DNA of 64,000 nucleotides from Seonamhaeicola algicola (GTDB lineage Bacteria; Bacteroidota; Bacteroidia; Flavobacteriales; Flavobacteriaceae): assembly GCF_007997385.1 (NCBI RefSeq), contig NZ_VOSC01000033.1, positions 310,775 through 374,774 of the forward strand, read 5' to 3'. Both the position numbers and the translations under genes were made by a program. Below, piece after piece: positions 25,101 to 43,386 of this stretch. The notes below the pieces were generated by a model, which had not been told where the DNA came from, ran no database searches, and saw only the letters and a list, made by a program, of their open reading frames with translations. The stretch's first letter is position 1. Each line of letters starts with the position of its first letter.

Positions 25101-25113
25101 ATTACTTTTTATT

Positions 25114-27675: not shown

Positions 27676-27679
27676 TTTT

Positions 27680-30130
27680 TTATTTTGAAATTAATGCTAC
27701 ACTAACCGTTTCTAATCCTTCTGAGGTAATTGTACATGTAATATTTCCTGCCTCTTGAGTAGATTGTAAAATTGCTAAGCATTTACCGTGAAAAGCAGAG
27801 CGTTTATTTGCTTTAAAGGGCTCTAAACCCATACTGTTGCCATTACCAACACCTGCAATAATTGCTGGTCCTTCAACATTAAATTTTAATGTATTATTAG
27901 CCGTGGGCACTTCGTTTCCGTCCTTATCTAGAATTGTACATTCCACATAAATTACATCTTGCCCGTTGGCCTTCATTTCAGTTCTTCTGGTTTCAACTTT
28001 AATTTTTGCTGGAGCTCCTGCGGTTTTAACCACTTTTTCGGCTATTATACTTCCGTTTTTAAAAGACACTGCTTTTAGCTCTCCTGGTTGGTAAACAACA
28101 TCCCAACTTTGGTATTCAACAGCATTTAAATTATTTTTTTTCTTACCTAAAGATTTCCCATCTTGAAACAGCTCTACTTCATCACCGTTTGTATAACTAT
28201 GCACCGTTACCTTTTTACCTTCCATTCCTTTTAAATTCCAATGCGGAAATATGTGAACCATAGGCTTATTTGACCATTGACTTTGGTAAAAATAGTAACC
28301 ATCTTTTGGAAAACCAGCCAAATCAATAGGTGCAAAACATGATGAACGCGCAGGCCAACCAAAGGGTATTACTTCGCCTAAATAATCCCAACCTGTCCAG
28401 ATAAACATTCCCATGATGTTTGGATATTTTTTTGTCATACGCCATGCTTCCATACCAGGTTCACCAAGTATACCTCTACTTTCAACCCACTCATAAGCAT
28501 CGTTATGCTCGTAGTTCAGTTTATCCCACCATGCTTTTTTTTCTTCATTATATAAATATGTAGAACGTGGGTAAAATGATTGCGCAGATTGATGTTCTGT
28601 TATTACGCTTTTAATATCTTTTAAAAGATCTATTTCGTTTAAATAGCGTTCTTCAGTAATATAATTAAACCCATAAATATCACTTGTTGCAGCGGCTTCT
28701 TGGTTTGGCCTATTTGGGCTCCAATACCCATGCACACCATTTGTTACTGGCCTGTAATCTAAATTATGCACAATATTGGCCAATCTTTTACCTATAGCAA
28801 CCCCTTCATCTTTACTCATTTGATGAATTTCATTACCAATACTCCACATAATAACAGATGGGTGATTTCTATCTCTTAATAGCATATCTTGTAAATCTAT
28901 ATCTGCCCATTCTTTAAATTTATTGGCATAGAAATCTACAGGAATTCTTATTTTTTTACCGTTTTGAGTTGTCATTGGTTCTTTAATAAGTTCCCATTCA
29001 TCAAACGCCTCATTCATTACCAAAAAGCCCATACTATCGCACACTTTTAAAAACTCTTCAGAAAATGGGTTATGAGCGGTACGAACGGCGTTACTTCCCA
29101 TTTCACGAAGTTTTTCCAACTGGCGTTCTACTGTTCGTCTATAAATTGCAGCCCCTAGAGGTCCGCCCGCATGATGTAAACAAACACCTTTTAATTTTGT
29201 TACCTTTCCGTTTAGTTTAAAACCTTCGTTCTTGCTAAATTCTAATGTTCTAATACCTGTTTTGTTTTCTTCGGAATACACCACAACATCAGCTTCTAAA
29301 ATTTCTGTTTTAATAGTATACAGGTTAGGTGTTTCTTGACTCCAAACTTGCGGATTAGGCACTTCTAAAACACTATGCGCTGTTTCTTTTCTTGTTGAAG
29401 CAATAATGACACCATTTGAAATAGTAGCAACCGCTTCACCATTTGGAGCATAAGCGGTATGACGAATAATTACTGATTTCTCTTCAGAAAAATCATTTTG
29501 TACAGAAGTTTCAATTTTTATTTCGGCCTTTTTAGAAGTATAGTTATCTGCCACAATATAATTGCCCCAAATTGGTACATACAGCTTGTTTGTTTTTATT
29601 AAATGCACATGACGATAAATACCGGTACCAGTATACCACCTTGACCCTGGTTGACTTGAGTTATCTAGCTTAACTGTAATAACATTATTTCCTCCAAATT
29701 TGATATGATTGGTCATATCATAATGAAATGCAATATATCCTAGTGGTCTTTTACCAAGAGAGTGCCCATTTATAAATACCTCCGAATTTCTGTAAGCGCC
29801 ATCAAAATAAATAACAAAGCGCTTGTTTTTATCTTCTTTGGCTACTTGAAATGTTTTTCTGTAAGTTACTTTTCCTGTTTGCAACCAACCGCCGCGAGAG
29901 AATGATGGGTTGTTTTTACTAAAGTTGCCTTCAATACTCCAATCATGTGGTAAATTTACATTACGCCACAAAGTGTCATTAAAATTTACATCTTCAGAAT
30001 TTGAAATATCATTAGCGTAAAATTTCCAATTAAAATCAAAATTCTCTTTTGTATTAAGAGTTTGTGGGCTATTACAAGCCAAAACACACAACAATAATGC
30101 AAGCAACCCAAACTTAAATTTTACACGCAT
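27680..30130 (-). CDS. GH2 beta-galactosidase-like glycoside hydrolase, lipoprotein
   Basis: An 816-aa GH2 enzyme with lipobox VLAC (Cys19). Sugar-binding jelly roll with NFDFNWKFY, VNLPHDWSIEG and GAYRNSEVFINGHSLG; immunoglobulin-like domain; TIM barrel with VCLHHAGGPLG, RTAHNPFSEEFL, acid/base Glu434 in SIGNEIHQ and probable nucleophile Glu in VITEHQSAQ; then WTGWDYLGE and Bacteroidetes-type C-terminal beta domains (with DUF4982-like features). GH2 enzymes of agar and porphyran loci act as exo-beta-galactosidases. It lies between a sulfatase (2-base gap) and a BNR protein (4-base gap) in the middle of the long operon. Confidence 0.93.
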   Translation of the reverse strand: MRVKFKFGLLALLLCVLACNSPQTLNTKENFDFNWKFYANDISNSEDVNFNDTLWRNVNLPHDWSIEGNFSKNNPSFSRGGWLQTGKVTYRKTFQVAKEDKNKRFVIYFDGAYRNSEVFINGHSLGKRPLGYIAFHYDMTNHIKFGGNNVITVKLDNSSQPGSRWYTGTGIYRHVHLIKTNKLYVPIWGNYIVADNYTSKKAEIKIETSVQNDFSEEKSVIIRHTAYAPNGEAVATISNGVIIASTRKETAHSVLEVPNPQVWSQETPNLYTIKTEILEADVVVYSEENKTGIRTLEFSKNEGFKLNGKVTKLKGVCLHHAGGPLGAAIYRRTVERQLEKLREMGSNAVRTAHNPFSEEFLKVCDSMGFLVMNEAFDEWELIKEPMTTQNGKKIRIPVDFYANKFKEWADIDLQDMLLRDRNHPSVIMWSIGNEIHQMSKDEGVAIGKRLANIVHNLDYRPVTNGVHGYWSPNRPNQEAAATSDIYGFNYITEERYLNEIDLLKDIKSVITEHQSAQSFYPRSTYLYNEEKKAWWDKLNYEHNDAYEWVESRGILGEPGMEAWRMTKKYPNIMGMFIWTGWDYLGEVIPFGWPARSSCFAPIDLAGFPKDGYYFYQSQWSNKPMVHIFPHWNLKGMEGKKVTVHSYTNGDEVELFQDGKSLGKKKNNLNAVEYQSWDVVYQPGELKAVSFKNGSIIAEKVVKTAGAPAKIKVETRRTEMKANGQDVIYVECTILDKDGNEVPTANNTLKFNVEGPAIIAGVGNGNSMGLEPFKANKRSAFHGKCLAILQSTQEAGNITCTITSEGLETVSVALISK

Positions 30131-30132
30131 AG

Positions 30133-31968
30133 CTATAATTTTAACTTATAATCATGTGCACCTGGTGCAAAATTGCTTCTGTATATTTCTTTACCTGTAA
30201 CACGACTTCCTTTACCCCAACCAACTTCAACACGGTTATCACCCAATACAATATTGATGAGTTTTTCTTTCATTTTCTCAGCAATTTTTTCATACTTTTT
30301 GTTGAAGGCTAAATTATTAACTTCATGAGGATCATTTTTTGTATCGTATAAAGCTGGATCTAAATCTTCATAAGATGCATTAAGCGCCCATTCCATATTT
30401 TCACCTCTGGTTTTGTTTGGGCGGGTTTGTATAGAAAACATAAAATCTTTGGTACGAATAAATGCTCTTGGGCCAGTTACCGCATGGGCTTCTCCAATAA
30501 CATAATCTCTTTTTGGCGCCTTATTAGCAGCTACTTTAGCTAAATCCATACCATCTAAATATTTAAACGTTTCAGTTTTAATATTAGCACCAGCAGCAGA
30601 AAGGATTGTTGGCGCTATATCTACAAACTCAGTAAATTCTTCAACCACTTTTCCTGCTGGAAATTTATTCTCATCTGAAGAAATTACAACTATAGGATTG
30701 TGTGAATCAATATTCCATGGTGTAAATTTTGAAACTGCTCCGTGATCGTTTAATTTCCAACCATGATCTCCGTTTACATATACTATTAAATACGGTTTAT
30801 TTTTTTTCTTGTTGTAGGCTATAAAATCATCTACTGCCTTACCTATCAAATTGTCTCCATAAGCACAAAAGGCAAAGTAATCTTGAATCATTTTTTGTTT
30901 TTCTTCATCTGTAAAATGATTTGTATAACTACTTTTTACTTGCTTTAAAAATTGTTTGGGCATAGTTTTTAATTCCTTTTCGTTAAACTCAGGAATTTTG
31001 TATGTGTGTTTTTTAAAACGCTCTCTGTAGGATGCCGGAGGCAATACTGGTGTGTGTGGAAAATCGAAACCTATATAGAAAAACTGAGGTTTATTTTCAT
31101 TAATGCCATTTACAGTTTGAGATCCGAATGAAAAAGTTTCTTCTTCATTTTTTAAATATTCATCAAAAATTTTAACGTAATACCCATCTCTAGTTTCACC
31201 TGCTTTTCTGGAGCTTACACCAGCTAAAATACCTGGAGAAAATGGTGTTTGAGGCCCTTTCTTTTCATTATAATGTCTTAGCAAATCATATTTTTCATGC
31301 GCTTTTTGGGCAGTGCCTTTGTACTTAGGAAATTCATTTTCTAAACGTTCAGATATATACTCAAACTCTCCTTTAGGAGTCACAAAATACTCCATACTTT
31401 TAAATGGCTTGTCTAACTTTTTACCATCCATTTCATAGAACCAATCTTTTCCCCATCCTGTAAACCCATCTTTTCTTAATTGTTTAAAATCGAAGTTATT
31501 TTGGTAAATATTGTAATTCTTAGACTTCCCGTTTTCAACCGTTTTTAATCTAACCCCTAATTTTCCAATACGCAGTGTTTGATATCCTAAGCTAGCCAGT
31601 TGTTCTGGAAAAGTAGGCTTACTATGTTCTGCCTTATTATGGTGGTATTCAAATTCATATACTCCAGAACGAAATGGATACCTTCCTGAATGCATAGACG
31701 CTCTTGATGGCGCACAGCCTGAAGCCTGACAATAGGTATTAATAAACGTGGTACCCATTTCTGTTAAACGATCTATATTTGGAGACTCTACATACCCAAG
31801 CTCACTCATTTCATTTCCAGTTAACATTTTATTAAATGCTCGAACGGCATCATACCTATGATCATCAGTTACTATCCAAAGTACATTTGGTTTTTCTTGT
31901 GCAAACGCATTGGGTTTAGCTATAAAAAGCAAGCTAAAAAACAGCAAAAAAGTGGTTATTTTTTTCAT
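30133..31968 (-). CDS. Type I sulfatase, secreted (long form)
   Basis: A 611-aa S1 sulfatase with signal peptide (KPNAFAQ). Metal site [10 protein letters not shown] (Asp35, Asp36), formylglycine motif [14 protein letters not shown] (Cys85), and a second metal region [13 protein letters not shown]. It is longer than the other sulfatases here because of insertions around residues 140-250, with many Lys and Asn residues. It follows another sulfatase by 13 bases and precedes GH2 by 2 bases, so desulfation and galactoside removal are probably coupled. Exact sulfate position unknown. Confidence 0.94.
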
Positions 31969-31981
31969 TTTAGTTTAATGT

Positions 31982-33580
31982 TTATTTAGTTTTTAATGGG
32001 GCAACTTTACCATAGCCGCCTTTGGGCGCATCATGAGCGGTTGCGTGTTGATCAAATCTTGGGATGACTTTTTTAAGTTCATCGCGCTCTTTTCTGTGCG
32101 CTTCAGATACTTTACTCCAATCTTTAATTTTAGGAAAGCTTATTAAATCTTTTGGATATTTACTAACGTCATACCATACGTTATTACCATCTTTCATTAC
32201 TAAATTTCCTCTAATAATGGTAGTTTCTTTATGATAGCCATACACCCAATCTCTATGTTTTGGTTTATTTGTGGTTAAGAAAGGCATTAAACTTTCTCCA
32301 TTCATCTCATAAGAATCTGGAATTGTAACACCACCTAAATCGGCTATTGTTGGAATTAAATCTGATATATTTGCCAAAACATTTTGCGCTCCTTTTTTAG
32401 TTAAATTCATACCAGGGGCATAAATAATTAAAGGCACATGTGTTCCTTTTTGTGAAACTGGACTAGACTTACCATAACCACTGGTACCATTATCTGCACA
32501 AAAAATGAAAACAGTATTATTCTCTATACCTAATTCTTTAAACTTATTTAAATATTGCCACACTTGGTAGTCTAGATAATTAATATGCGTGTGAATACCA
32601 TTTTCAGTTATAGTTCCGTAATCATTATAAACACCATTATCACCTGTTACTTTTGGTTTTGTACGTGTGTATTTTTTTCCATCCCAGTTAATTTTAGGTG
32701 TCCCTGGCCATTTACCTTCGTTATTTGGATGAAGAAAATCCCAAGCATCATGCCCCAAATGGCTTGTATGATATACAAAAAATGGTTTTCCTTCTTTAGC
32801 TTTACGTTCTATAAAATCAAAAGTAAACTCTAATTCTACATCTGGACCAAAAGTGTTAAGTCCAAATTCCTTTTCTGATTTTTTATCATTTGGCCACCAA
32901 ACAAATTTTTCTTTGGTATCAGGGTGATTCATTAACTGCACATGAGGTTGCCAGTACCACCCAGATTGCACATAACTTTTTTTATGAATTGGCTTATTAG
33001 TATCGGCATTATAAATTACTTTTTTACCCGCTTTCTTTCTTGTTTCTAACCTAAAATCTGTGGTGTGAATAGCTGTATTATATGATCCTTCTCCTGGAGT
33101 AAAACAACCTTCATCAAAAGGAAACCCTTCAATACTCATTTGAGTTTTTCCTGCCCAAAATGTTGCGTAACCACCCGCTTTAGCTACATGAGCAATACTA
33201 TGTGGCGAACTATCATATAAATCCCATACGCCTTTTCCATTAGGCGCTTTTCCTTTGTCTTTATTATGCCACCATTTGTGTAAATGTGCATAACGCCCCG
33301 TCATCATCATAGCTCTACTTGGCCCACATACTGTAGCTGCCCAAGCCGTTTTCACATAACAGCCTTCTTCAGCTATTTTATCAAGCGTAGGCGTTTTTGC
33401 TTTATATTTCACATCTGATGTTGTTCCGCCTTTAGGCGGACTCCATACTGTTGACCCATAAATTGGTAATTCTCTAGCGCTAATATCATCTGCAAAAAGG
33501 AGTACAATATTTGGCTGTTTTTGCGCATTTCCTATTAAAAAAGAAAGCATACAAACGTTTAAAAACACTTTTAATTTCAT
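31982..33580 (-). CDS. Type I sulfatase, secreted
   Basis: A 532-aa S1 sulfatase with signal peptide (LIGNAQ). Metal site FADDISARELP, formylglycine motif CGPSRAMMMTGRYA (Cys85), and later motif FCADNGTSGYGKS. The insertion GGTTSDVKYKAKTPTLDKI before the core helix and a YGYHKETTIIRG segment resemble a sulfatase type common in marine Bacteroidetes and Planctomycetes loci. It is the second gene after the larger BNR protein (14-base gap) and is followed by another sulfatase. Confidence 0.93.
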   Translation of the reverse strand: MKLKVFLNVCMLSFLIGNAQKQPNIVLLFADDISARELPIYGSTVWSPPKGGTTSDVKYKAKTPTLDKIAEEGCYVKTAWAATVCGPSRAMMMTGRYAHLHKWWHNKDKGKAPNGKGVWDLYDSSPHSIAHVAKAGGYATFWAGKTQMSIEGFPFDEGCFTPGEGSYNTAIHTTDFRLETRKKAGKKVIYNADTNKPIHKKSYVQSGWYWQPHVQLMNHPDTKEKFVWWPNDKKSEKEFGLNTFGPDVELEFTFDFIERKAKEGKPFFVYHTSHLGHDAWDFLHPNNEGKWPGTPKINWDGKKYTRTKPKVTGDNGVYNDYGTITENGIHTHINYLDYQVWQYLNKFKELGIENNTVFIFCADNGTSGYGKSSPVSQKGTHVPLIIYAPGMNLTKKGAQNVLANISDLIPTIADLGGVTIPDSYEMNGESLMPFLTTNKPKHRDWVYGYHKETTIIRGNLVMKDGNNVWYDVSKYPKDLISFPKIKDWSKVSEAHRKERDELKKVIPRFDQHATAHDAPKGGYGKVAPLKTK

Positions 33581-33594
33581 GCTATTTAATTTTA

Positions 33595-36183
33595 TTAATT
33601 GTTGTTTATTAAAGCCTTAAACCAGCCGCTTCCCCATGCTGCGCACCAAAGCACATTTTCATTGTATGGGTCTGGTTTAAAGTCGGTCATTTTATCAGGC
33701 TGCCCTATACCTTTGTTAATCTTACTCCAGCTTTCGCCATTGTCTTTGGTTATGTATAACCCCGGATTTTTAAAGTTTTTATGGTAAGGCACATTTACTG
33801 TTATGATATTTGAATTAACTGGAGACACTTCTGTTTGCCATACATATGGTGCTTTGAAAAACTTTTTCCAATTCTTACCATTGTCTGTACTCTTCCATAC
33901 ACCACCGGCTTCATAGGGTCCGAAATTAGAGCCCGCTGATAGATACATTGCTTTAGTATTTCTATCTATAAACAGGTTGTTAACGGATTCTATTTGAGAT
34001 GGAATTTTCATCTTTTCCCAAGTTAAAGCACCATTTGTAGATTTGTACAATCCGCCAACGTGGTGTTTATTTCTTTGGTTTACTGAGGCATACATAATTT
34101 TTGGGTTTTTAGGATCCATTGTTAGCCTTCGCACGCTACCTAATTCTGGCAAACCTTTATTACTAAGCGTCCAATTATAACCACCGTCATTGGATTTGTA
34201 CACACCATATTTCCCTTTAGACATGACGTCTTCCTTTGGAGATACTCCAACCTCTTGTACTACATGCCTAATGGCTGTGAAATACATGCTATTTGGTGTT
34301 TCAGGGTCTATAATTAACGAACCTTGAAAAGCAATACCCCTATACTCAGGGTTTTTTCCTTCAAAAATTGTTGCTATATTTTCCCAAGTTTTTCCGCCAT
34401 TGGTTGTTCTTCTCAGTTTTCCTCGGTGCTCTTGCCTCCAACTTAAAATATAAATTGTATTAGGTTTTTTTGGATGCACAGCTACTGTTGATGTAGAATG
34501 AGAGGCATGATTACCGCTATGGTCATGCACTTGCCCTTCAATTTGTTTTACAGCTACTGCATTTTTGTCAGGATAATTGCCTAGTGGTGCTGTTTGCCAT
34601 AAACCATGCTCGCCACTACAAAGTAAGTATCTGTCTTTAATTCCTGTTTCTAACAGCATAAAACGCCCTGGTAAATTACTATTACCTCTACCAACCCATG
34701 TATTACTACCTGGTGCCGTTTCATAATCATCAATTTGTTGCCAAGTTTTACCACCATCATTTGAACGTTGTGTTTGTTGTTGTACGCCAATAAACACTTC
34801 GCCTTTAGCATTTATTGCTAAACTTCTACTGCCAAATCTTACTTCGTGTAATTCAGCATTTGCTTTAGCCACATGCGAAAAATCAACATTTGCCCCTATG
34901 TTAAACCCCTTACTTAGCCAATATGCCTTATCTTTTTCTTGATCCCAGTACGTTCCTGCCCGTGCACAAATTTTCCAAGTTTTGCCTCCATCTTCCGTTT
35001 TCCAAGCATCACCCGGACCAAAACTTTTATCATGACGCTGGTTAGCAACTAAATAAATCTCATTTTTATTTAAAGGGTTTACAGCCATTCTGTTGAAAAT
35101 GGAATAGGTGTTTTCTGGAAACTTTGGGTACACTTTTCTTGAGTCCGTATCAAACCAATAACTTAACACACGGTGGTAGTTATTTCTGTGATATTTATCA
35201 GTTATCATATTATAGTTTACACCCAAATTACCGGTAATATTCTCCCAAGTTTTTCCACCATTTGTACTTTTATACACACCGCCTTTTGTTGTAATAGTTT
35301 TTCCATTAGGTTCATACACCGTTTGTTCTAATAGATATAAAACAAACTCTTTAGTTTTTGAATTGTAATAAGATGAAAGGTCTCTAGGTAAATTATTTGG
35401 CAACCCTTTTGCACTAGGTTTCCAAGTTTCTCCGGTATCATTACTCACAAAAAAACCATAATTAGTAGCAATGTACATTTGATTTGGTGTTACAGGATTA
35501 ATAATGATACGGGCAACATCTAAATCTTTTGAAATAGTATTGGCTACCTTTTTCCATGTTTTACCATGATCTGTGGTTTTTAAAACATAGCCATAACTGG
35601 CTATTTTGTTTTTTTTACCACGGATTAATTTTTGTGAACGATGATTGTATTTTACATTCCAAAAATCTCCAGCCCCTACAAACCAAATAGCGTCATTTGC
35701 TGGATGAATAGCTAATTTTGTATGGGCATTATATGCCGATTTTTCGGCTCTCGGTATGGTATATACTAATTCCCAGTTTCTTCCGCGGTTTGTAGTTTTA
35801 AATATTTTTCCGCGTCTTTCTAAAGCTAAGCCAAAGTCTGGATTCTTCTTAGAAAAGGCAATGTCTAGAACGCGCTCTAAACATTTTCCATCACCGTCAT
35901 AATCTTTAATAGAATGCCATGATTTACCATTATCCCATGTGCCATAACTAACATGCATATCTGGCCCCATAAACATCACATTAGTATCTGTAGGATGGCA
36001 CCAAAACTCTTCGTTGTAACCAGACATTCCTGGCCCGAAGTTTTTCCACTCCACAGATTGATCTGATGTTACTCTTTCACTTTTTATTTTTTTGAAAAAA
36101 GACTCATTATTTTTTTGAGCATAAACACCGTTTAACACTACAAAAAGCCCCCATACGCATAACTTTTTAAAACACATATCCAT
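33595..36183 (-). CDS. Large secreted BNR/Asp-box double beta-propeller protein (paralogue 2)
   Basis: A paralogue of the 853-aa BNR protein further along the operon, of the same length and domain order, with about a dozen Asp-box motifs (TTDHGKTWKKV, STNGGKTWENI, TEDGGKTWKIC). Shared blocks include GPGMSGYNEEFWCHPT and SGEHGLWQTAPLGNYPDK. An in-frame ATG exists 7 codons upstream (36204), but a perfect -7 element TAGCTTTG overlaps it, so the start is placed at the downstream ATG, which gives a good signal peptide (CVWGLFVVLNGVYAQ); the next ATG (36177) is also possible. It is the first gene of the operon BNR2-sulfatase-sulfatase-GH2-BNR1-esterase. Molecular activity unknown. Confidence 0.78.
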   Translation of the reverse strand: MDMCFKKLCVWGLFVVLNGVYAQKNNESFFKKIKSERVTSDQSVEWKNFGPGMSGYNEEFWCHPTDTNVMFMGPDMHVSYGTWDNGKSWHSIKDYDGDGKCLERVLDIAFSKKNPDFGLALERRGKIFKTTNRGRNWELVYTIPRAEKSAYNAHTKLAIHPANDAIWFVGAGDFWNVKYNHRSQKLIRGKKNKIASYGYVLKTTDHGKTWKKVANTISKDLDVARIIINPVTPNQMYIATNYGFFVSNDTGETWKPSAKGLPNNLPRDLSSYYNSKTKEFVLYLLEQTVYEPNGKTITTKGGVYKSTNGGKTWENITGNLGVNYNMITDKYHRNNYHRVLSYWFDTDSRKVYPKFPENTYSIFNRMAVNPLNKNEIYLVANQRHDKSFGPGDAWKTEDGGKTWKICARAGTYWDQEKDKAYWLSKGFNIGANVDFSHVAKANAELHEVRFGSRSLAINAKGEVFIGVQQQTQRSNDGGKTWQQIDDYETAPGSNTWVGRGNSNLPGRFMLLETGIKDRYLLCSGEHGLWQTAPLGNYPDKNAVAVKQIEGQVHDHSGNHASHSTSTVAVHPKKPNTIYILSWRQEHRGKLRRTTNGGKTWENIATIFEGKNPEYRGIAFQGSLIIDPETPNSMYFTAIRHVVQEVGVSPKEDVMSKGKYGVYKSNDGGYNWTLSNKGLPELGSVRRLTMDPKNPKIMYASVNQRNKHHVGGLYKSTNGALTWEKMKIPSQIESVNNLFIDRNTKAMYLSAGSNFGPYEAGGVWKSTDNGKNWKKFFKAPYVWQTEVSPVNSNIITVNVPYHKNFKNPGLYITKDNGESWSKINKGIGQPDKMTDFKPDPYNENVLWCAAWGSGWFKALINNN

Positions 36184-36201
36184 ACATTTTTTGAATATTA
36201 A

Positions 36202-36209
36202 CAAAGCTA
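36202..36209 (-). promoter_or_regulatory. Bacteroidetes -7 element before the BNR2 operon
   Basis: TAGCTTTG on the minus strand is an exact TAnnTTTG match about 20 bases before the chosen BNR2 start codon. No clear -33 element is seen at the standard distance. It suggests that the BNR-GH2-sulfatase operon can be transcribed separately from the planctomycete-type operon upstream. Confidence 0.45.
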
Positions 36210-36304: not shown

Positions 36305-37369
36305 TTATACTCTGTGTAATTTATAAGGATAAACGTTTCCTGCGTTCCATTGGCATACATACAGGTTTTTATCATTGTCTACACACACATCATGACAGTG
36401 CTTAAAAATGGGGGCATCCTGATACATTATTTTCAGCTTTCCATTTTTATATTTTGGCTTTGTACCTCCGGGATTTGAAACTACTTTATGGTTTTTGTCT
36501 AGAATTGTTACAAAACCTCTATTCATTTTCATGTTATAATTGCCTTCTTCCATACCAAAGCAAACACCAGAATATAGGTTATCTCCATTAATAACAGGTC
36601 TACTTACATAAGCTCCTGGTAAATAATAGGTTTCTATGAATTTACCATTTAAAGTAAATCGTTTAAAGGCATTCTTAATACGTGCAGAACATAGTAGAGT
36701 TGGGTTATTGGGATCTCGCGTATCTAACGCAACGCCATGAGCCTGTTTAAACTTAGCTTCTTGCAGAAAACTATCGCCGCCAAATTTCCTAATAAAATTA
36801 CCCTTGGCATCATACTGTAAAATAAATTGAGAACCATAACCATCAGCAATGTACACATCGCCATTAGGCCCAATAGCTGTTTCTGTTGGACGGAAATGCA
36901 TGTTAGATTTGTAGGCGCCATTATCTTTTGGCGAATCGAAAGTTTTAACAATGGTTCCTGTTAAAGTTGTTTTTATAACCTTGCCTAAGTTAGGATCTGT
37001 TATATATAAATATTCGTCATCACCTTCATCATGTAAAGTCAATCCATGACCTCCTGGAAGTTTCAGCGTCCAATTATCTAAAAGCTTTCCAGATTTATCA
37101 TAAATAAGTATGTTATTTTTAACATGATCGGTAAGCATAAATAATCTGCCTTTTTTATCCATTACCATTTCATGACAATTCTTTACTGGATGGTTTTTTG
37201 GGTTTAGATTTCCCCATTCTAACTCTAAACGATACTTAAAATTACCGTGACCTAAAATTGTCTCGCTTAATTTTGGTTTAGATGCCATTATATAAAATGG
37301 CACTGACGAAACCAAAGTAGAAGCTGCTATAGCTTTTGTAGATGATTTGATAAATGTGCGTCTTTCCAT
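36305..37369 (-). CDS. Tat-exported NHL-repeat/six-bladed propeller protein of unknown function
   Basis: A 354-aa protein whose N-terminus MERRTFIKSSTKAIAAS is a twin-arginine-type signal. The rest is NHL-like blades (CHEMVMDKKGRLFMLTD, LTLHDEGDDEYLYITDP, ETAIGPNGDVYIADGYG, HGVALDTRDPNNPTLLC, HDVCVDNDKNLYVCQW) that would build a six-bladed propeller, as in peptidylglycine-lyase-like and SMP-30-like proteins. Paired HxxxxD motifs at blade starts (NCHEMV, KHCHDVC) could bind a metal. It is the last gene of a three-gene operon with a DUF1501 protein (5-base gap) and a cytochrome-type lipoprotein. Substrate unknown; Tat export suggests a folded, perhaps cofactor- or metal-loaded protein. Confidence 0.75.
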   Translation of the reverse strand: MERRTFIKSSTKAIAASTLVSSVPFYIMASKPKLSETILGHGNFKYRLELEWGNLNPKNHPVKNCHEMVMDKKGRLFMLTDHVKNNILIYDKSGKLLDNWTLKLPGGHGLTLHDEGDDEYLYITDPNLGKVIKTTLTGTIVKTFDSPKDNGAYKSNMHFRPTETAIGPNGDVYIADGYGSQFILQYDAKGNFIRKFGGDSFLQEAKFKQAHGVALDTRDPNNPTLLCSARIKNAFKRFTLNGKFIETYYLPGAYVSRPVINGDNLYSGVCFGMEEGNYNMKMNRGFVTILDKNHKVVSNPGGTKPKYKNGKLKIMYQDAPIFKHCHDVCVDNDKNLYVCQWNAGNVYPYKLHRV

Positions 37370-37374
37370 TATAC

Positions 37375-38823
37375 TTATGATAAAATATCTTTTACTACAT
37401 GACCATGTACATCGGTTAAACGGAATCGTCTTCCTTGATGTTTAAAGGTTAACCTTTCATGATCTATACCTAGTAAATGTAATAGTGTAGCTTGAAAATC
37501 GTGAATATGAACTGGGTTCTCTACAACGTTATAACTAAATTCATCTGTTTTGCCATACACCATTCCTGCTTTTACACCAGCGCCTGCCATCCACATACTA
37601 AAACACCCTGGATGGTGGTCTCTACCATAACTAGTTGCTGTTAACCTTCCTTGTGAAAAACTAGTTCTACCAAATTCTCCGCCCCAAACTACTAAGGTAT
37701 CATCTAATAAACCCCGTTGCTTTAAATCTTGAATCAACCCCGCTGTGGCTTGATCTGTATCTCTGGCCTGTCTTTTTATGCCTCCTGGTAAATTTCCGTG
37801 CTGATCCCAACCGGTATGATATAATTGAATAAACTTTACACCACGTTCTGCTAGCCTTCTTGCTTGTAAACAATTTGCGGCATATGTTCCTGGTTTGCGT
37901 GCATCTTCACCATATAATTTATAAGTATATTCTGGTTCTTCTTTTGTATTTACAGCTTCCGGAACTGAACTTTGCATTTTATAAGCCATTTCATATTGAT
38001 TGATTTTAGATTGAATTTCAGGGTCATTCCATAAACTATATTGTTGCTGGTTTAATGCTTTAATATAATCTAGAGCGCGCCTACGGTCATTATCTTGCAC
38101 ACCATGGGGATTGTTTAAATACAATACAGGATTTTTACCAGACCTAAATTGAACACCCTGATGATGTGAAGGTAAAAAGCCATTACCCCATGCCGCTGAG
38201 CTTAAGGGCTGGGAACCACCGCCTTTTGAAACTAGCACTACAAAGTTGGGCAAGTCTTTATTATCACTACCTAAACCATAGCTTAGCCATGACCCAATTG
38301 AAGGACGACCGCTTAATTGAGAACCTGTTTGTAAAAACATAACTGCAGGCTCATGATTTATGGCATCTGTATACATGGAATTAATAATACACAAATCGTC
38401 AACAACCTGCGCTGTATGCGGAAATAAATCACTTACCCAAGCACCTGATTGCCCGTACTGTTTAAAATTGAAAATTGACTGCACTAATGGAAATGTAGAT
38501 TGATCTGTAACCATACCCGAATTTCGTTGTGTACCTTTAACAGACGGTGGAATTTCTTTACCATGCCATTTGGCCAATGCTGGTTTATAGTCTAGCGTTT
38601 CTATTTGCGAGGGCGCACCACTTTGAAATAGATAAATAACCCGTTTTGCTTTGGGCATAAAATGCGGTGCTAATTTGTCATTATTTAATAGTGCATTATT
38701 GGCAAATGCCGAAGATGGTGCCAACATTGAGCTTAATGCTATAGAACCAAATCCTAAAGAAGCCTTTTTAAGAAATCCGCGTCTGGTTTCTGCAAATTGT
38801 AGTTGTTTTTTTATGTCGTCCAT
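37375..38823 (-). CDS. DUF1501 protein, Tat-exported, alkaline phosphatase/sulfatase superfamily-like
   Basis: A 482-aa protein with a twin-arginine signal (TRRGFLKKASLGFGS) and the DUF1501 core: AKRVIYLFQSGAPSQIETLDYKP, INHEPAVMFLQTGSQLSGRPS, LPNFVVLVSKGGG, GVKFIQLYHTGWDQHGN and TLVVWGGEFGRTS. DUF1501 is placed in the alkaline phosphatase/sulfatase superfamily; Asp and His residues in the GWDQH and GRDHHPG segments look like metal ligands, but there is no formylglycine motif. Such proteins are abundant in Planctomycetes, nearly always next to a DUF1549/DUF1553 gene, as here (10-base gap). No activity is established. An export-folded hydrolase working on a polysaccharide or its sulfate groups is an inference. 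Confidence 0.85.
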   Translation of the reverse strand: MDDIKKQLQFAETRRGFLKKASLGFGSIALSSMLAPSSAFANNALLNNDKLAPHFMPKAKRVIYLFQSGAPSQIETLDYKPALAKWHGKEIPPSVKGTQRNSGMVTDQSTFPLVQSIFNFKQYGQSGAWVSDLFPHTAQVVDDLCIINSMYTDAINHEPAVMFLQTGSQLSGRPSIGSWLSYGLGSDNKDLPNFVVLVSKGGGSQPLSSAAWGNGFLPSHHQGVQFRSGKNPVLYLNNPHGVQDNDRRRALDYIKALNQQQYSLWNDPEIQSKINQYEMAYKMQSSVPEAVNTKEEPEYTYKLYGEDARKPGTYAANCLQARRLAERGVKFIQLYHTGWDQHGNLPGGIKRQARDTDQATAGLIQDLKQRGLLDDTLVVWGGEFGRTSFSQGRLTATSYGRDHHPGCFSMWMAGAGVKAGMVYGKTDEFSYNVVENPVHIHDFQATLLHLLGIDHERLTFKHQGRRFRLTDVHGHVVKDILS

Positions 38824-38833
38824 GGTTTAGTTT

Positions 38834-41800
38834 TTATCTAAGTGTAAAAGCGTCGGTTGTATTTAAAATTCCATTTATAACTGTTGCCAAAGCTGCTGTT
38901 TCTGTATAATTATCGGTAGATTTTATTGGAGATGCTCCTATATTTAAATACGCTACAGCATTGGCTTTGTTGGCTTCAAATCGTTCGTATTCATTCTTAT
39001 AAAATTTAATTAGTACTTGTAATTCTCCATCTATGGGAGTTCTTCCTGTGCCCAGTTTAAATGCAGTATTGAGCTGTTTTGTTATGTTTTTTGGATATTG
39101 CTCAATTAAGTTTTCTGCCAATACGCGTCCAGCTTCAATATATTGCGGATCATTTAACAATACTAATGCTTGTAAGGGAGTACTTGTTTGTCTTCTCTTT
39201 ACTGCACAAACACCACGGTCTGCCACATCAAAAATACTCATTGTTGGTGGTGGCGAAGTGCGTTTCCAAATGGTATATAGACTTCTTCTGTATAACCCTT
39301 CTCCTGGTTTTTGCAAATACTTATAACGCCACTTTTTATTACTTAATTCGTCCCAGAGGCCTTCTGGTTGATATGGGTATACACTTGGCCCTCCTAGTTT
39401 ATCGGAAAGCAATCCACTAATTGAAAGCGCGTTGTCTCTTATCATTTCAGCTGGCAACCTAAAACTTGGACCTCGTGCCAACAATACATTATCAGAATCT
39501 ATTTCTAATAGCTTTTCGGTTGTTTTTGAGCTTTGCTTGTAGGTTTCAGACATTACAATTTGTTTATGCAATGCTTTTATATCCCATCCAGATTCCATAA
39601 AACTTACTGCTAAATAATCTAGCAATTTGGGGTGTGAAGGCAAACTACCTTGGCTACCAAAATCATCAGATGTTTCAACGATACCTTTACCAAAATGCAT
39701 TTGCCAAATTCGGTTAACAAACACTCTTGCGGTTAAAGGATTGTTTTTATCAAATAACCATTTAGATAAGCCTAGTCTGTTTTTAGGTAAGCTTTTATTA
39801 AATGGTAAAACGGCTGTGGGCACTCCAGGAAATACCTCATCAGTTGGAGCATCGTATTGCCCTCTATCTAAAACAAAAGTTGGTCTTGGTTCAGGTAAAT
39901 CGCCAAGTACCATAATTTCTGGAATACTGTCTACATGTTGTGTTAGCGCTTTTTTAAGGGTTTGTATTTTTAATTTTTCGGTATTACTTGGTTTGTGCAA
40001 GTTAGCAAAGTAAAACTCTGACAATAACGATGTGCTTTCTTCTGATGTTTTATTTGCTAATAGCGAATTAAATCTTTTTCTGTTTTCAATAAATGCAACT
40101 TCAATGGTTGATAATGCTTTATTGAAAATTTTTAAATTATCAACACCTCCACCAACAAAAGATTTCATCCCGTCACGTCTTCCAATTCTAAAACCATGAA
40201 AACCATAGGTATGGATATTGGGTTTAAAAAGTATGGATTTATACAAATTATCAATATCAACTTTTACAGATATTTCTTTACCATTTTTGAATAAGCGAAT
40301 GCCTTTTGCTTTACCAGAACCATCATAAGACACCGTTACATTAGCCCATTCCTTTTCGGTTATTGGTTCTTTTGAAGTTACCTGAATTGCATTAGATGGC
40401 CAAGAAAAGGCAATAATAAATTTTAAGTGATTCTCCTCTAAATGAAGAGAATACCCTTTATATCCATTTCGAATATCTTCACAATGGTTAAACACCATAG
40501 CATCATCATATACTTTATCTGGAAAGATGGAAAGACGCACTGAAAAAGGATCTGTATGATCAAACCACCCTATGTTTTTTGGTAGCTTAAATGCTGTAAA
40601 ATCATTTAAAAACAGTGCTTTTCCAGAAGCGCCTTCTTTTATAACAGGGTCATTAGCAGTTGCTATTCCACCATTATTTAAACCAGGTATATTATAACTG
40701 TTTTTTTCCTTTTTTAGGAATGTTTCAAAAGACCAATTTGCAACTACATGCGTTTTAATAGTTTTTGAAATGGTATTTTGAATCTTTACCTTATCAGTTT
40801 GTAGCCAGTTATTAAAGTCCGAATTTCCTTGATTAAGTATCGTCTTTAATTTGCGGGTTGATTCTCCAATTTGCTGCTCTAAAAATTTAATAACATCTTC
40901 CTGTTCTTTATTCGTTAAGAGTAAAGATGGTCCTGGTGTTTGATCTGGTCCGTATACAGCGGTGCCAATTTCATTGGTGCTATTAAAAAATGCCGCTAAT
41001 TTATAATGGTCTTTTTGACTAATAGGATCGTATTTATGGTCGTGACAACGGGCACATTCCACAGTAAGCCCCAAGAATGCTTTAGACATGGTTGCTGTTC
41101 TATCTGCCACGTATTCTGCCCTAAACTCTTCGTAAACAATACCTGCTTCAGAATTTTTCTTATGCAACCTATTAAAAGCGGTTGGTAATACGGTTTCTAC
41201 ATTGGCATTAGGTAATAAATCGCCTGCCAATTGCTTGGTTACAAACTCTTCATAAGACATGTTTTTATTGAACGCATTAATGACCCAATCTCTATACGGA
41301 CTAAAATCTCGATGTTTGTCATCAAGGTAACCATCGCTATCAGCATATCTAGCAACATCCATCCAATTTGCTGCCATTCGTTCTCCATAGGTAGAAGATG
41401 CTAACAGTTTATCAACTACATTTTCGTAGGCTTTATTTGTTGTATCATTAACAAAATATTCAATTTGTTTAATAGTTGGCGGCAAACCTGTTAAAGTAAA
41501 GTACAAACGCCTTATTAATGTTTCTTTTGTTGCTGTTTCAGATGGTTTTAAATCATGCTTTTCTAAGTTGGCTGCAACAAAATAATCAATGCTGTTTTTT
41601 GGCCAATAGTTATATGTTGTTTTAGGCAATTCATACTTTTTTGGAGCAATAAAAGACCAATGAGGTTTGTACTCTGCTCCTTGCTCAATCCATTTAATTA
41701 ACAAAACTTTTTCAGCATCTGTTAATGCTAAATTAGCTTCTGGTGGCGGCATAAGTTCAGATGCATTATCTGTTAAAATTCTATCAACAAGCGTACTTTT

Positions 41801-42073
41801 ACCAGGTTTTTGGGGCATTATTGCATGTAGTTCTGCATCACCTAAAGCTGCATAAGCATGCTCTGGAGTATCTAATCTTAACTCAGATTTTTGAGTTTTT
41901 GCGTCTGGACCATGACAAGCAAAACACTTATCAGATAATATAGGTTTTATGTGATAGTTAAAGTCTACCACATTTGGCGTGTGCTCATATGCTGGAATTA
42001 AATGCTCCGGAACTTTATACCCGCAGCTATAAGCCAACATTAAAATTAAAAAAATTAATGCATTGTTTCTCAT
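38834..42073 (-). CDS. Planctomycete-type cytochrome c (PSCyt1)-DUF1549-LamG-DUF1553 lipoprotein
   Basis: A 1079-aa lipoprotein (lipobox AYSC, Cys17). The order is: heme-binding PSCyt1 domain with CFACHG (Cys50, Cys53, His54); DUF1549/PSCyt2 (about residues 150-360, with ASSTYGERMAANWMDVARYADSDG cut into YGERMAANWMDVARYADS and CARCHDHKYDP, a second CxxCH); a coiled-coil spacer; a LamG/concanavalin-like domain (about 450-660); and DUF1553/PSD1 (about 740-1060, with NPLTARVFVNRIWQ, HFGKGIV, RSLYTIWKRT and TPLQALVLLNDP). This architecture is a hallmark of planctomycetes and is rare in Flavobacteriaceae. It is first in the operon with DUF1501 and NHL genes and divergent from a membrane-bound regulator. 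Two CxxCH motifs and LamG suggest a redox enzyme that binds a glycan. Function unknown. Confidence 0.88.
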   Translation of the reverse strand: MRNNALIFLILMLAYSCGYKVPEHLIPAYEHTPNVVDFNYHIKPILSDKCFACHGPDAKTQKSELRLDTPEHAYAALGDAELHAIMPQKPGKSTLVDRILTDNASELMPPPEANLALTDAEKVLLIKWIEQGAEYKPHWSFIAPKKYELPKTTYNYWPKNSIDYFVAANLEKHDLKPSETATKETLIRRLYFTLTGLPPTIKQIEYFVNDTTNKAYENVVDKLLASSTYGERMAANWMDVARYADSDGYLDDKHRDFSPYRDWVINAFNKNMSYEEFVTKQLAGDLLPNANVETVLPTAFNRLHKKNSEAGIVYEEFRAEYVADRTATMSKAFLGLTVECARCHDHKYDPISQKDHYKLAAFFNSTNEIGTAVYGPDQTPGPSLLLTNKEQEDVIKFLEQQIGESTRKLKTILNQGNSDFNNWLQTDKVKIQNTISKTIKTHVVANWSFETFLKKEKNSYNIPGLNNGGIATANDPVIKEGASGKALFLNDFTAFKLPKNIGWFDHTDPFSVRLSIFPDKVYDDAMVFNHCEDIRNGYKGYSLHLEENHLKFIIAFSWPSNAIQVTSKEPITEKEWANVTVSYDGSGKAKGIRLFKNGKEISVKVDIDNLYKSILFKPNIHTYGFHGFRIGRRDGMKSFVGGGVDNLKIFNKALSTIEVAFIENRKRFNSLLANKTSEESTSLLSEFYFANLHKPSNTEKLKIQTLKKALTQHVDSIPEIMVLGDLPEPRPTFVLDRGQYDAPTDEVFPGVPTAVLPFNKSLPKNRLGLSKWLFDKNNPLTARVFVNRIWQMHFGKGIVETSDDFGSQGSLPSHPKLLDYLAVSFMESGWDIKALHKQIVMSETYKQSSKTTEKLLEIDSDNVLLARGPSFRLPAEMIRDNALSISGLLSDKLGGPSVYPYQPEGLWDELSNKKWRYKYLQKPGEGLYRRSLYTIWKRTSPPPTMSIFDVADRGVCAVKRRQTSTPLQALVLLNDPQYIEAGRVLAENLIEQYPKNITKQLNTAFKLGTGRTPIDGELQVLIKFYKNEYERFEANKANAVAYLNIGASPIKSTDNYTETAALATVINGILNTTDAFTLR

Positions 42074-42095
42074 ACCTAATAAATACCTGTGTTAT

Positions 42096-42103
42096 CAAAT
42101 ATA
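42096..42103 (-). promoter_or_regulatory. Bacteroidetes -7 element for the cytochrome/DUF1501/NHL operon
   Basis: TATATTTG on the minus strand is an exact TAnnTTTG match 22 bases before the cytochrome gene. The place of the -33 element is occupied by the left arm of a 14-bp inverted repeat, so transcription should depend on what binds there. Confidence 0.55.
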
Positions 42104-42113
42104 GAAACCATTT

Positions 42114-42155
42114 TTAACAGTTAATAAGTGAATAAACTGTTTTATTAACTGTTAA
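42114..42155. promoter_or_regulatory. Perfect 14-bp inverted repeat, candidate operator between divergent promoters
   Basis: TTAACAGTTAATAA (42114-42127) and its exact reverse complement TTATTAACTGTTAA (42142-42155) are separated by 14 bases. Each arm contains the small palindrome TTAACnGTTAA, and their centres are 31 bases (three helical turns) apart. A further AACTGTT lies between them. The left arm is 11-24 bases upstream of the cytochrome -7 element; the right arm is 13-26 bases upstream of TACATTTA (42168-42175), a near-consensus -7 for the regulator gene. This symmetry fits an operator shared by both genes. Confidence 0.6.
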
Positions 42156-42192
42156 TAAATTATTTATTACATTTAAAACTTATAACAAATAC

Positions 42193-43386
42193 ATGGAGAA
42201 AATTCCTGATTATAAGAAAATAGTTAATAAAATAACTTCAAGTAAATCCTTTGGAAGATCAAGCACTTATGCTAACCTACTTAGCTACTTGGCAGATTGT
42301 ACTTTAAATAGAAATGTACCCAAAGAAACCACTATTGCTTCTGATATTTTTAGAAAAAGAGATTTTGACCCAACCCAAAGCACATTGGTTAGAGTGTATG
42401 TTTACAACCTAAGAAAAAAACTTGAAGCTTATTATAAAAACGAAGGTAAACACGACAAAAAAATTTTAAAAATACCTAAGGGAAGCTATGAGGTATTGTT
42501 GATTGACCGAAAATTTGAAACCCAAAAAAAAGAAAAAGTATTTCCATTTAAAACGGTTATAGCTTGCACTATTTTAGTGTTAATCGTTTCATTATTCTTC
42601 AATATAATAGCCTTTAATAACACTAAAAAAACATCAAAAAAAAGCTCTTCTAAATTGTGGAAAGATCTTTTACATAAAGATCAACCTTTAACGGTTGTAA
42701 TTGGAGATTTATTTCTTTACGAAGAATTAGATTCTTTGCACAAAGCCAATAGAACCACACGAAATTCTAGAGTAAATTCTTTGGAAGAATTTGAAGAATT
42801 CAAATCTTTAAATGAAACTTCTAAGGTGAGTTTTCAACCCGCTGATTACACTTTCTTAATTTACAATAGTGCGCTTTGGATAAAAGATTTGAGTCATATT
42901 TTCACAAAAAACAATAAGAATTTTGCCGTTAGAAATATGGCACGCTTTAACCCTAAGGCGCTTCAAGACGGCGATTTTATAGTTTTGGGTATGCTAAAAA
43001 CCTTTGGTTTGTTTAGGGAATATACTGAAACAACAGCGTTTCCGTACACCCCAAAACAAGATGCTATTATTTACACCGATAGTACTAATTCAAAACAGGT
43101 TTTAAAACCTTTTGGTAACCCTAATGAATACCATACAGACTATGGCATAATTATGAAAATTCCAGGACCAAACAGCAATAACATATATCTTTTTGGCGGT
43201 ATTTGGGATACTGGTGCTTCGCAAAGTTTAAAATACTTTACCGATGATACCTTACTTGAAAACTTAGAAACTAGAATGATTTCTAAATTTGGAAGTATAC
43301 CTGCGTATTACGAAGTGCTTTTTGAAGTTAAAGGTATAGACCGTATGGAGTTAACACCTACAATTCTTGAAATAAACAAAAAATAA
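42193..43386 (+). CDS. Membrane-anchored one-component transcription regulator with N-terminal DNA-binding domain
   Basis: A 397-aa protein. Residues 1-105 resemble the winged-helix-like N-terminal domain known from many Acidobacteria and Planctomycetes regulators: SSKSFGRSSTYANLLSYLAD, then KETTIASDIFRKRDFDPTQS, LVRVYVYNLRKKLEAYY and LKIPKGSYEV. A single transmembrane helix follows (about residues 119-141, VIACTILVLIVSLFFNIIAF). The C-terminal 250 residues would be extracytoplasmic and match no family I know; FILKIPGPNSNNIYLFGG-like strands suggest an alpha/beta sensor. The topology is that of CadC/ToxR. It is divergent from the cytochrome/DUF1501/NHL operon, and the shared intergenic region holds a strong inverted repeat, so it probably controls that operon and itself. 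Confidence 0.75.
   Translation: MEKIPDYKKIVNKITSSKSFGRSSTYANLLSYLADCTLNRNVPKETTIASDIFRKRDFDPTQSTLVRVYVYNLRKKLEAYYKNEGKHDKKILKIPKGSYEVLLIDRKFETQKKEKVFPFKTVIACTILVLIVSLFFNIIAFNNTKKTSKKSSSKLWKDLLHKDQPLTVVIGDLFLYEELDSLHKANRTTRNSRVNSLEEFEEFKSLNETSKVSFQPADYTFLIYNSALWIKDLSHIFTKNNKNFAVRNMARFNPKALQDGDFIVLGMLKTFGLFREYTETTAFPYTPKQDAIIYTDSTNSKQVLKPFGNPNEYHTDYGIIMKIPGPNSNNIYLFGGIWDTGASQSLKYFTDDTLLENLETRMISKFGSIPAYYEVLFEVKGIDRMELTPTILEINKK

Follow-up and report, generated by a model that had tools for sequence, protein, structure and literature searches.

The window analyzed here is a 64-kb stretch of the genome of Seonamhaeicola algicola. It carries a compact run of three genes, which we call the cassette, together with a divergent regulator gene (REG). 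The cassette comprises a lipoprotein gene (PSC, for the architecture PSCyt1-DUF1549-(LamG)-DUF1553), a DUF1501 gene, and an NHL gene. Codes L008-L241 designate fetched homologous stretches, G codes designate sampled genomes, and a row is one aligned sequence. The features come from open reading frames (ORFs) and from Pfam scans that covered 30 proteins of the window:

38834..42073, minus strand: PSC lipoprotein, PSCyt1-DUF1549-LamG-DUF1553 (1079 aa ORF, Pfam).
37375..38823, minus strand: DUF1501 protein of the twin-arginine translocation (Tat) type, with an alkaline phosphatase/sulfatase fold and an altered active site (482 aa ORF, Pfam).
36305..37369, minus strand: NHL propeller, Tat-type, with the PAL-like residues H108, H211, H326, and Y178 (354 aa ORF, Pfam).
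42193..43386, plus strand: REG, with a weak match to a winged helix and a single hydrophobic stretch (397 aa ORF).
42074..42192, no strand: A+T-rich divergent intergenic region of 119 bases, with the presumed promoters.

The intergenic distances are 10 bases between PSC and DUF1501 and 5 bases between DUF1501 and NHL, and 119 bases separate PSC from REG. The ORFs and the Pfam matches agree with the first-pass annotation of this DNA, which had described a three-gene run with these domains, gaps of 5-10 bases, and a divergent regulator.

All the PSC domains scored above the Pfam cut-off (PSCyt1, 52.4 bits; DUF1549, 279.6; Laminin_G_3, 46; DUF1553, 334.4), and the lipobox Cys17 is invariant in 20/20 aligned relatives. 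The protein contains two CxxCH motifs, C50-C53-H54 in PSCyt1 and C340-C343-H344 in DUF1549, and a LamG lectin domain at about residues 504-660. PSC rows of at least 700 aa were kept, and those used for the conservation analysis and the tree also had to score more than 250 bits and not to be open-ended. Two CxxCH motifs are found in 159/161 rows, and so are the heme 1 ligands His54 and Met108, while C343, H344, and H346 of heme 2 are present in all 161. No second axial ligand of heme 2 is strictly conserved, the best candidate being Met721 (147/161, or 150/161 if three of the 14 exceptions, which resemble alignment shifts, are mended). The AlphaFold model of PSC has a pLDDT of 85, and the 50 Foldseek matches listed of 195 fit, by nature and length, the LamG-type jelly roll, a common lectin fold that also occurs in clostridial toxin receptor-binding domains and a GH43 arabinanase and implies no toxin kinship. 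Among these 50 there was no match to PSC outside the LamG-type domain. Searches of the Protein Data Bank with the single PSC or DUF1501 sequence gave nothing useful, and a PSC profile matched FoxE (E 3.7e-8) and a hydrazine synthase subunit, both via PSCyt1.

The DUF1501 protein (PF07394) scored 541 bits, above the Pfam cut-off. Both this protein and the NHL protein of the window have an RR motif at the N-terminus, and an RR-type motif is found in 152/153 DUF1501 rows, a set limited to sequences of at least 380 aa and more than 200 bits that are not open-ended, so that a weakly scoring class of DUF1501 and the DUF1501 proteins accompanying the 945-aa fusions described below are not represented. 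Among 50 of 110 Foldseek matches there were sulfatases, a sulfamidase, lipoteichoic acid (LTA) synthases, and a phosphonate monoester hydrolase (E from 6e-6). A profile search matched LtaS/sulfatase, and hhalign against 13 sulfatases aligned DUF1501 residues 349-467 (E 1.2e-6). DUF1501 therefore belongs to the alkaline phosphatase/sulfatase superfamily and shares with S1 sulfatases the fold and the C-terminal sequence match. It differs from them in the active site, since the Ca2+ pair D277-N278 of the sulfatases aligns in hhalign to E383-F384. In addition, a trimmed N-terminal comparison placed H157 weakly (E 0.0067, probability 5.7%) on the formylglycine Cys, the Pro two residues on being also matched. 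H157, D340, and H342 are present in 153/153 rows and E383 and H403 in 99%, so that at the place given by this weak local alignment every row has His, and not the Cys of the C-x-P-S-R motif.

These data bear on another explanation, in which DUF1501 would hydrolyze sulfated oligosaccharides in the manner of a sulfatase or phosphatase, leaving the cytochrome protein, with purely structural hemes, only to anchor or sense. Two sulfatase genes follow the cassette in the window and the superfamily is the right one, but the presumed Cys is His157 in all rows, the Asp-Asn pair for Ca2+ has become Glu-Phe, the CxxCH motifs of PSC are almost constant, and the tie to a membrane cytochrome (see below) is strict. 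We thus consider plain hydrolysis distinctly unlikely, and the ordinary hydrolase that had been one option for DUF1501 at first does not fit the replaced catalytic and Ca-site residues.

The NHL domain of the third protein scored 32.1 bits, above the Pfam cut-off. The protein matches the structure 3fvz of peptidyl-alpha-hydroxyglycine alpha-amidating lyase (PAL) with E 8e-5 as a single sequence and 4e-13 as a profile. H108, H211, and Y178 fall on PAL His/Tyr residues in the scored alignment, and H326 does so only in a non-significant piece. The 3fvz chain positions, counted from the alignment, are 94, 199, 295, and 163, with the same spacing as PAL H585, H690, and H786, which we take to be the metal ligands, and Y654, presumably the catalytic Tyr. 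Residues H66, H108, H211, H326, and D176-G177-Y178 are invariant in 42/42 NHL rows (only those of 300-430 aa were kept). Although it is bacterial, Tat-type, 354 aa long, and devoid of any Pfam domain besides NHL, unlike PAL, the protein shares with PAL the propeller, and its aligned His and Tyr residues resemble the PAL active site in spacing, suggesting that it may be a PAL-like metallo-lyase.

PSC and DUF1501 lie on the same strand at most 1.5 kb apart in 133/134 PSC rows examined, an adjacency beyond chance; the gap is shorter than 100 bases in 124/134, and the sole exception to the pairing is a tandem PSC in L079. Near the PSC genes, NHL was found in 40/134 and DUF2231 in 66/134. DUF1553 is present in 33/149 sampled Flavobacteriaceae genomes, with up to 11 matches per genome, and DUF1501 matches above 200 bits occur in exactly the same 33; counting weaker matches, 86 of the 149 carry DUF1501. 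PF07624, also tried as a marker, proved to be the wrong family and was uninformative.

The genome of the window contains three cassettes, that of the window being copy A. Copy B (contig C3) consists of PSC, DUF1501, NHL, and a DUF2231-PSCyt1-LRR gene, and is surrounded by sulfatases, an alpha-L-fucosidase, and a SusC/SusD pair. Copy C (contig C29) consists of NHL, a PSC without LamG, DUF1501, and a DUF2231-PSCyt1-Fn3 gene; it lies mostly amid housekeeping genes, including a tRNA-synthetase gene, but the gene immediately upstream resembles those of hybrid two-component systems (HTCS), and a GH16 gene is found at a distance of about 6 kb. TatC is present, as are genes for cytochrome c assembly.

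The DUF2231 protein of copies B and C combines four predicted transmembrane helices (DUF2231) with a PSCyt1 domain and a tail of either the LRR or the Fn3 type. At E <=1e-10, a DUF2231-PSCyt1 protein is present in 33/33 DUF1553 genomes and in 1/116 of the others (Fisher p 2.6e-32), and all 33 have a match that starts within the DUF2231 part. In three of the 33 (G044, G045, G070) this is the fused ORF itself, which makes the independent count 30/30. His15, His20, His83, His132, His139, the CxxCH motif, and Met237 are found in 75/75 rows; if both ends are periplasmic, the His cluster would lie towards the periplasmic face, which would fit a b-heme or quinol site.

The fusion is a 945-aa protein (L230:5616-8453) that joins DUF2231, PSCyt1, DUF1549, and DUF1553, with a Bac_rhamnosid_N domain embedded in DUF1553, and downstream of it there are DUF1501, NHL, and alpha-L-rhamnosidase genes. 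In a Saccharobesus plasmid (L141:9857-15806), DUF1549/DUF1553 and DUF1501 are followed by cytochrome c' and cytochrome b561, which replace DUF2231. The genome-level tie to a membrane cytochrome, the fusion with it, and this swap of partner favor the redox alternative of the first-pass annotation, and a redox role of the cassette is likely.

The same electron chain could also work in the reductive sense, with the DUF2231 cytochrome taking electrons from the quinol pool and passing them outward to the hemes, where O2 or peroxide would be activated for an oxidative attack on the glycan. The co-occurrence, the fusion, and the conserved residues would suit this direction as well, and so would a heme 2 without a strictly conserved sixth ligand; the available part of one report describes a small c-type cytochrome that activates bacterial lytic polysaccharide monooxygenases (LPMOs) (PMC8981238). 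Nevertheless, no LPMO family occurs among the Pfam matches of the 30 window proteins, and the direction of the electrons is not readable from sequence, so we regard reductive activation as unlikely.

Three further observations concern these proteins. The rhamnosidase-N insert and the alpha-L-rhamnosidase occur in one gene run (L230), and this insert may reveal what the substrate is. The PSC copy of the Saccharobesus plasmid lacks the heme-1 motif. Finally, there is a parallel fusion of the DUF1592 type, with DUF2231, PSCyt1, and, in the two proteins scanned (1211 and 1325 aa), a PSD2-5/PSCyt3 set, at the following loci:

L228:7236-11213, parallel fusion.
L229:4338-8288, parallel fusion.
L231:2553-6188, parallel fusion.
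L232:1905-5861, parallel fusion.

The next gene encodes DUF1552 in all three loci scanned (L228, L229, L232) and is followed by an MFS-type gene (Pfam in L228 only), which looks like a parallel system of like build.

REG had been described as CadC-like. It has one strongly hydrophobic stretch (hydropathy maximum of 2.8 at residue 122) that qualifies as a transmembrane helix, but its Trans_reg_C match of 16.6 bits is below the cut-off of 26.2, and thus the assignment is plausible rather than proven. A divergent REG less than 500 bases from PSC was found in 14/23 rows of the clade that contains the window PSC (clade A, see below) and in 0/111 other rows, in agreement with the proposal of a self-contained and self-regulated unit; in L039 the same REG is also upstream of a second, same-strand PSC. 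REG matches above 380 bits in the 149 family genomes are five, namely that of the window and those at four other clade-A cassettes, and 17 further matches are paralogues with 22-31% identity. Sugar genes were counted with a small reference set, so all these counts are lower bounds, and 20 regions from cassette-bearing genomes served as controls. Reference sugar genes were present in 7/8 of the fetched surroundings of REG paralogues and in 5/20 control regions (p 0.004), and the eighth carries a GH3 gene. The REG family is possibly a little-described class of regulators of polysaccharide utilization loci (PULs). Single-protein regulators of this family (L233:8731-9879, L235-L241) were seen beside GH2, GH43, GH88, GH3, UxaC, and SusC genes. 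In the clade of copy B, 9/13 rows have an AraC-like gene of 287-293 aa that diverges from PSC (two Pfam-checked), and in the five-row clade of copy C a large HTCS-like gene lies upstream in 5/5 (one Pfam-checked). Each of the three clades thus keeps a different regulator, and all three are of kinds that are common in sugar loci.

The PSC tree comprised 159 rows and was rooted on one Singulisphaera row; its planctomycete side was made up of two Singulisphaera plasmid rows and 28 IMG/VR contig rows of unproven taxonomy. One starred clade contains 123/126 Bacteroidota rows, three gammaproteobacterial plasmid rows, and one IMG/VR row, and the other contains the 27 remaining IMG/VR rows and one Singulisphaera row. 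The Flavobacteriaceae rows L131-L133 branch outside the Bacteroidota clade. The import from planctomycetes that had been postulated is therefore not sustained, since nearly all the Bacteroidota rows stand apart from 27/28 planctomycete-like contig rows. As to the IMG/VR contigs with PSC-DUF1501 pairs (L196-L227), they are probably bacterial pieces misfiled as viral.

The window PSC, with Seonamhaeicola and Jejuia, falls inside the 25-row clade A, which further includes Saprospiraceae, Lewinella, Flammeovirgaceae, Cytophagaceae, Cyclobacterium, and a Catenovulum plasmid. In a careful tree of clade A, the grouping of its 13 Flavobacteriaceae rows as a single clade was rejected by the approximately unbiased (AU) test (p-AU 2.1e-5), the group having been named after a quick tree had been inspected. 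The Catenovulum plasmid, which is gammaproteobacterial, carries REG, PSC, DUF1501, NHL, and the membrane cytochrome together, adjoining GH43, DUF1565, GH115, and GH98 genes. The tree and the AU rejection suggest that the cassette, widespread in Bacteroidota, moves between families, and together with the regulator-bearing plasmid cassette this rejection speaks for the horizontal mobility that had been claimed. The largest clusters of recurrent neighbors in 22 clade-A loci were sulfatase (in 6) and SusC (in 5), and no constant fourth gene was found among them.

Our preferred reading, to which we give a probability of about 0.4, is that the cassette encodes a redox module, located in the cell envelope and induced by its substrate, that oxidizes a glycan, a metallo-lyase cleaving the product and the electrons leaving to the membrane. 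PSC would hold the glycan through its LamG domain, with heme 1 (His/Met) devoted to electron transfer and heme 2 maybe catalytic. DUF1501, exported folded by Tat, would offer an alkaline phosphatase-superfamily scaffold in which nucleophile and Ca2+ ligands are replaced and which probably holds a different metal, and it would probably act with DUF1553 on the substrate. Oxidation would take place at the glycan or its substituent, and the PAL-like NHL protein would then break the oxidized intermediate. Electrons would exit from heme 1 to the DUF2231 b/c-type membrane cytochrome, supplied here by the two other copies of the genome, and from there to the respiratory chain, and REG would turn the unit on upon sensing the sugar. 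A more specific version appears unlikely in its full form: a di-heme c-type oxidase (DUF1549/DUF1553) and the sulfatase-fold metalloprotein DUF1501 would oxidize a C-H or C-OH beside an ether or glycosidic bond, the PAL-like propeller lyase would split this bond, following a PHM/PAL-like logic on sugars, and the DUF2231 b/c cytochrome would power a regulated cassette that moved between phyla.

Several observations weigh against the envelope redox module. To our knowledge, neither an activity nor the heme content nor a substrate has been measured for any member. Met721 could ligate heme 2, and then both hemes would be plain electron carriers. For DUF1501, the AlphaFold pLDDT of 75 means moderate confidence, the Foldseek TM values were 0.27-0.39 among the matches listed, and the H157 placement was not recovered in a global run of the same comparison (E 0.36). 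The non-enzymatic NHL domains of TRIM and Thin outscore PAL; NHL was found near PSC in 0 of the planctomycete-like contigs, and its absence beside most PSC genes means that the lyase step would not be universal. In the fetched stretches, only 2/23 clade-A copies (L045, L138) are accompanied by a DUF2231 gene of their own. Moreover, in the cassette loci of at least 17 kb (74 of 80), a reference sugar gene was near 32/74 against 5/20 controls (p 0.20, not significant). Sugar genes were at 16/47 of the cassettes that are not LamG-size, again not significant against controls, and LamG-size and other cassettes differ only at p 0.051.

In contrast, LamG-size copies alone have sugar genes at 16/27 against the same 5/20 (p 0.037), so the proposed sugar association stands for these copies and not for all cassettes. 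The supposed confinement to PULs does not hold, given the overall count and the Jejuia copy (L040), where no sugar family was found in 8 of 9 neighboring ORFs scanned (metG, beta-lactamase-type, peptidase S66, TerB/DnaJ, two AraC-type, and two without match). An acquired PUL module would imply genes that stay together, near PUL genes, and without vertical inheritance; the genes are not scattered, and vertical inheritance was rejected for clade A, but the cassettes are often without PUL genes. The FoxE match of PSCyt1 and the lack of sugar-gene enrichment at copies without LamG would be compatible with an accessory of extracellular electron transfer or respiration, which would have no tie to glycans and would deliver electrons to a metal or another acceptor outside the cell. 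Nevertheless, LamG and rhamnosidase-N domains lie inside the protein, and the clades of the three copies have three regulator types common in PULs. These domains and regulators point to glycans, and electron export is the least probable of the explanations considered.

Sugar-related neighbors were seen at single loci. Those of the clade-A cassette L059 include genes for L-arabinose isomerase, an SSF symporter, and an FGGY sugar kinase, and those of L087 (clade A) include LacI and ThuA. About 4 kb separate a Cyclobacterium copy from a SusD-like gene. The ThuA gene would be in line with a 3-keto-type pathway, in which dehydrogenation of the sugar at C3 would precede elimination or hydrolysis of the glycosidic bond; oxidation followed by cleavage suits the NHL protein, and the available part of PMC9007349 proposes 3-keto-lactose pathways in the periplasm of Caulobacter and Bacteroidetes. 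However, none of the 30 scanned window proteins has a DUF1080 match in Pfam (no separate search was aimed at a LacABC-type dehydrogenase), and we deem this pathway quite improbable. It overlaps with the envelope redox module that we prefer, and the odds do not sum to one.

On the strand of the cassette, the gene run continues as follows:

23556..36204, minus strand: VPS10/BNR, two sulfatases, GH2, VPS10/BNR, and SASA esterase genes.

The spacing from NHL to these genes is 100 bases without a terminator-like site, and because of this and the common strand the cassette may head a putative nine-gene operon running into PUL genes. The region 2-44223 of the window qualifies as a PUL by its SusD, HTCS, GH88, GH28, GH43, GH16, GH2, and sulfatase genes (Pfam); the SusD gene is truncated by the left window edge, and no SusC was seen in the window. 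Two large VPS10/BNR propeller proteins (25114-27675 and 33595-36204) lie within the PUL. A mutS gene (48888-51500) is within about 7 kb of the window cassette, and another (L041:3612-6212) within about 4 kb of a Cyclobacterium cassette, which may reflect either a common insertion site or coincidence. Proteins of the DUF7133 type with cytochrome c domains were also seen near cassettes (L008:11532-13727, L076:14955-17195, L089:14149-16386; two Pfam-checked, the L008 one additionally with HEAT repeats), another unexplained heme family in these surroundings.

The pairing of DUF1501 with PSCyt genes was already known. In the available part of PMC5615132, PSCyt genes of Verrucomicrobia and Planctomycetes, at high frequency in some genomes, have carbohydrate modules, are often near sulfatases, and usually lie beside one of two unknown families; a part in carbohydrate metabolism, by action on mono- or oligomers, is suggested there, and the functions are called unknown. 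The PSCyt1/PSCyt2-PSD1 genes of that account share with the cassette the domains, the carbohydrate modules (including Laminin_G_3 and Bac_rhamnosid_N), and the proximity to sulfatases, and the membrane cytochrome partner, the regulator, the active-site reading, and the Bacteroidota cassette are added here. Reported DUF1800-DUF1501 pairs, near chitin synthase genes, have likewise a twin-arginine DUF1501 and a conserved partner order, but the partner is DUF1800 and the available part of the source mentions no heme cytochrome (PMC5122149). In cytochrome-driven LPMO systems, as far as the available part of the source goes, a c-type cytochrome also feeds a polysaccharide oxidase (PMC8981238), whereas the 30 window proteins include no LPMO and the hemes sit within the putative substrate-binding protein. 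Our literature searches, whose coverage is thin for subscription journals, surfaced no functional study of DUF1501, DUF1549, or DUF1553; as far as they show, what is new comprises the partnership with a membrane cytochrome, the regulator, the changes at the sulfatase site, and the resemblance of the propeller to PAL.

DUF1501, DUF1549, and DUF1553 are among the most repeated proteins without known function in Planctomycetes and Verrucomicrobia, and with the Bacteroidota cassette the question comes down to three or four genes and a membrane partner that can be named. The dedicated regulator could lead to the inducer, and the active-site residues are testable. The cassette looks like a mobile kit for oxidative sugar breakdown and, if it truly acts on glycans, sugar degradation in marine and freshwater habitats would have an oxidative branch that has been overlooked.

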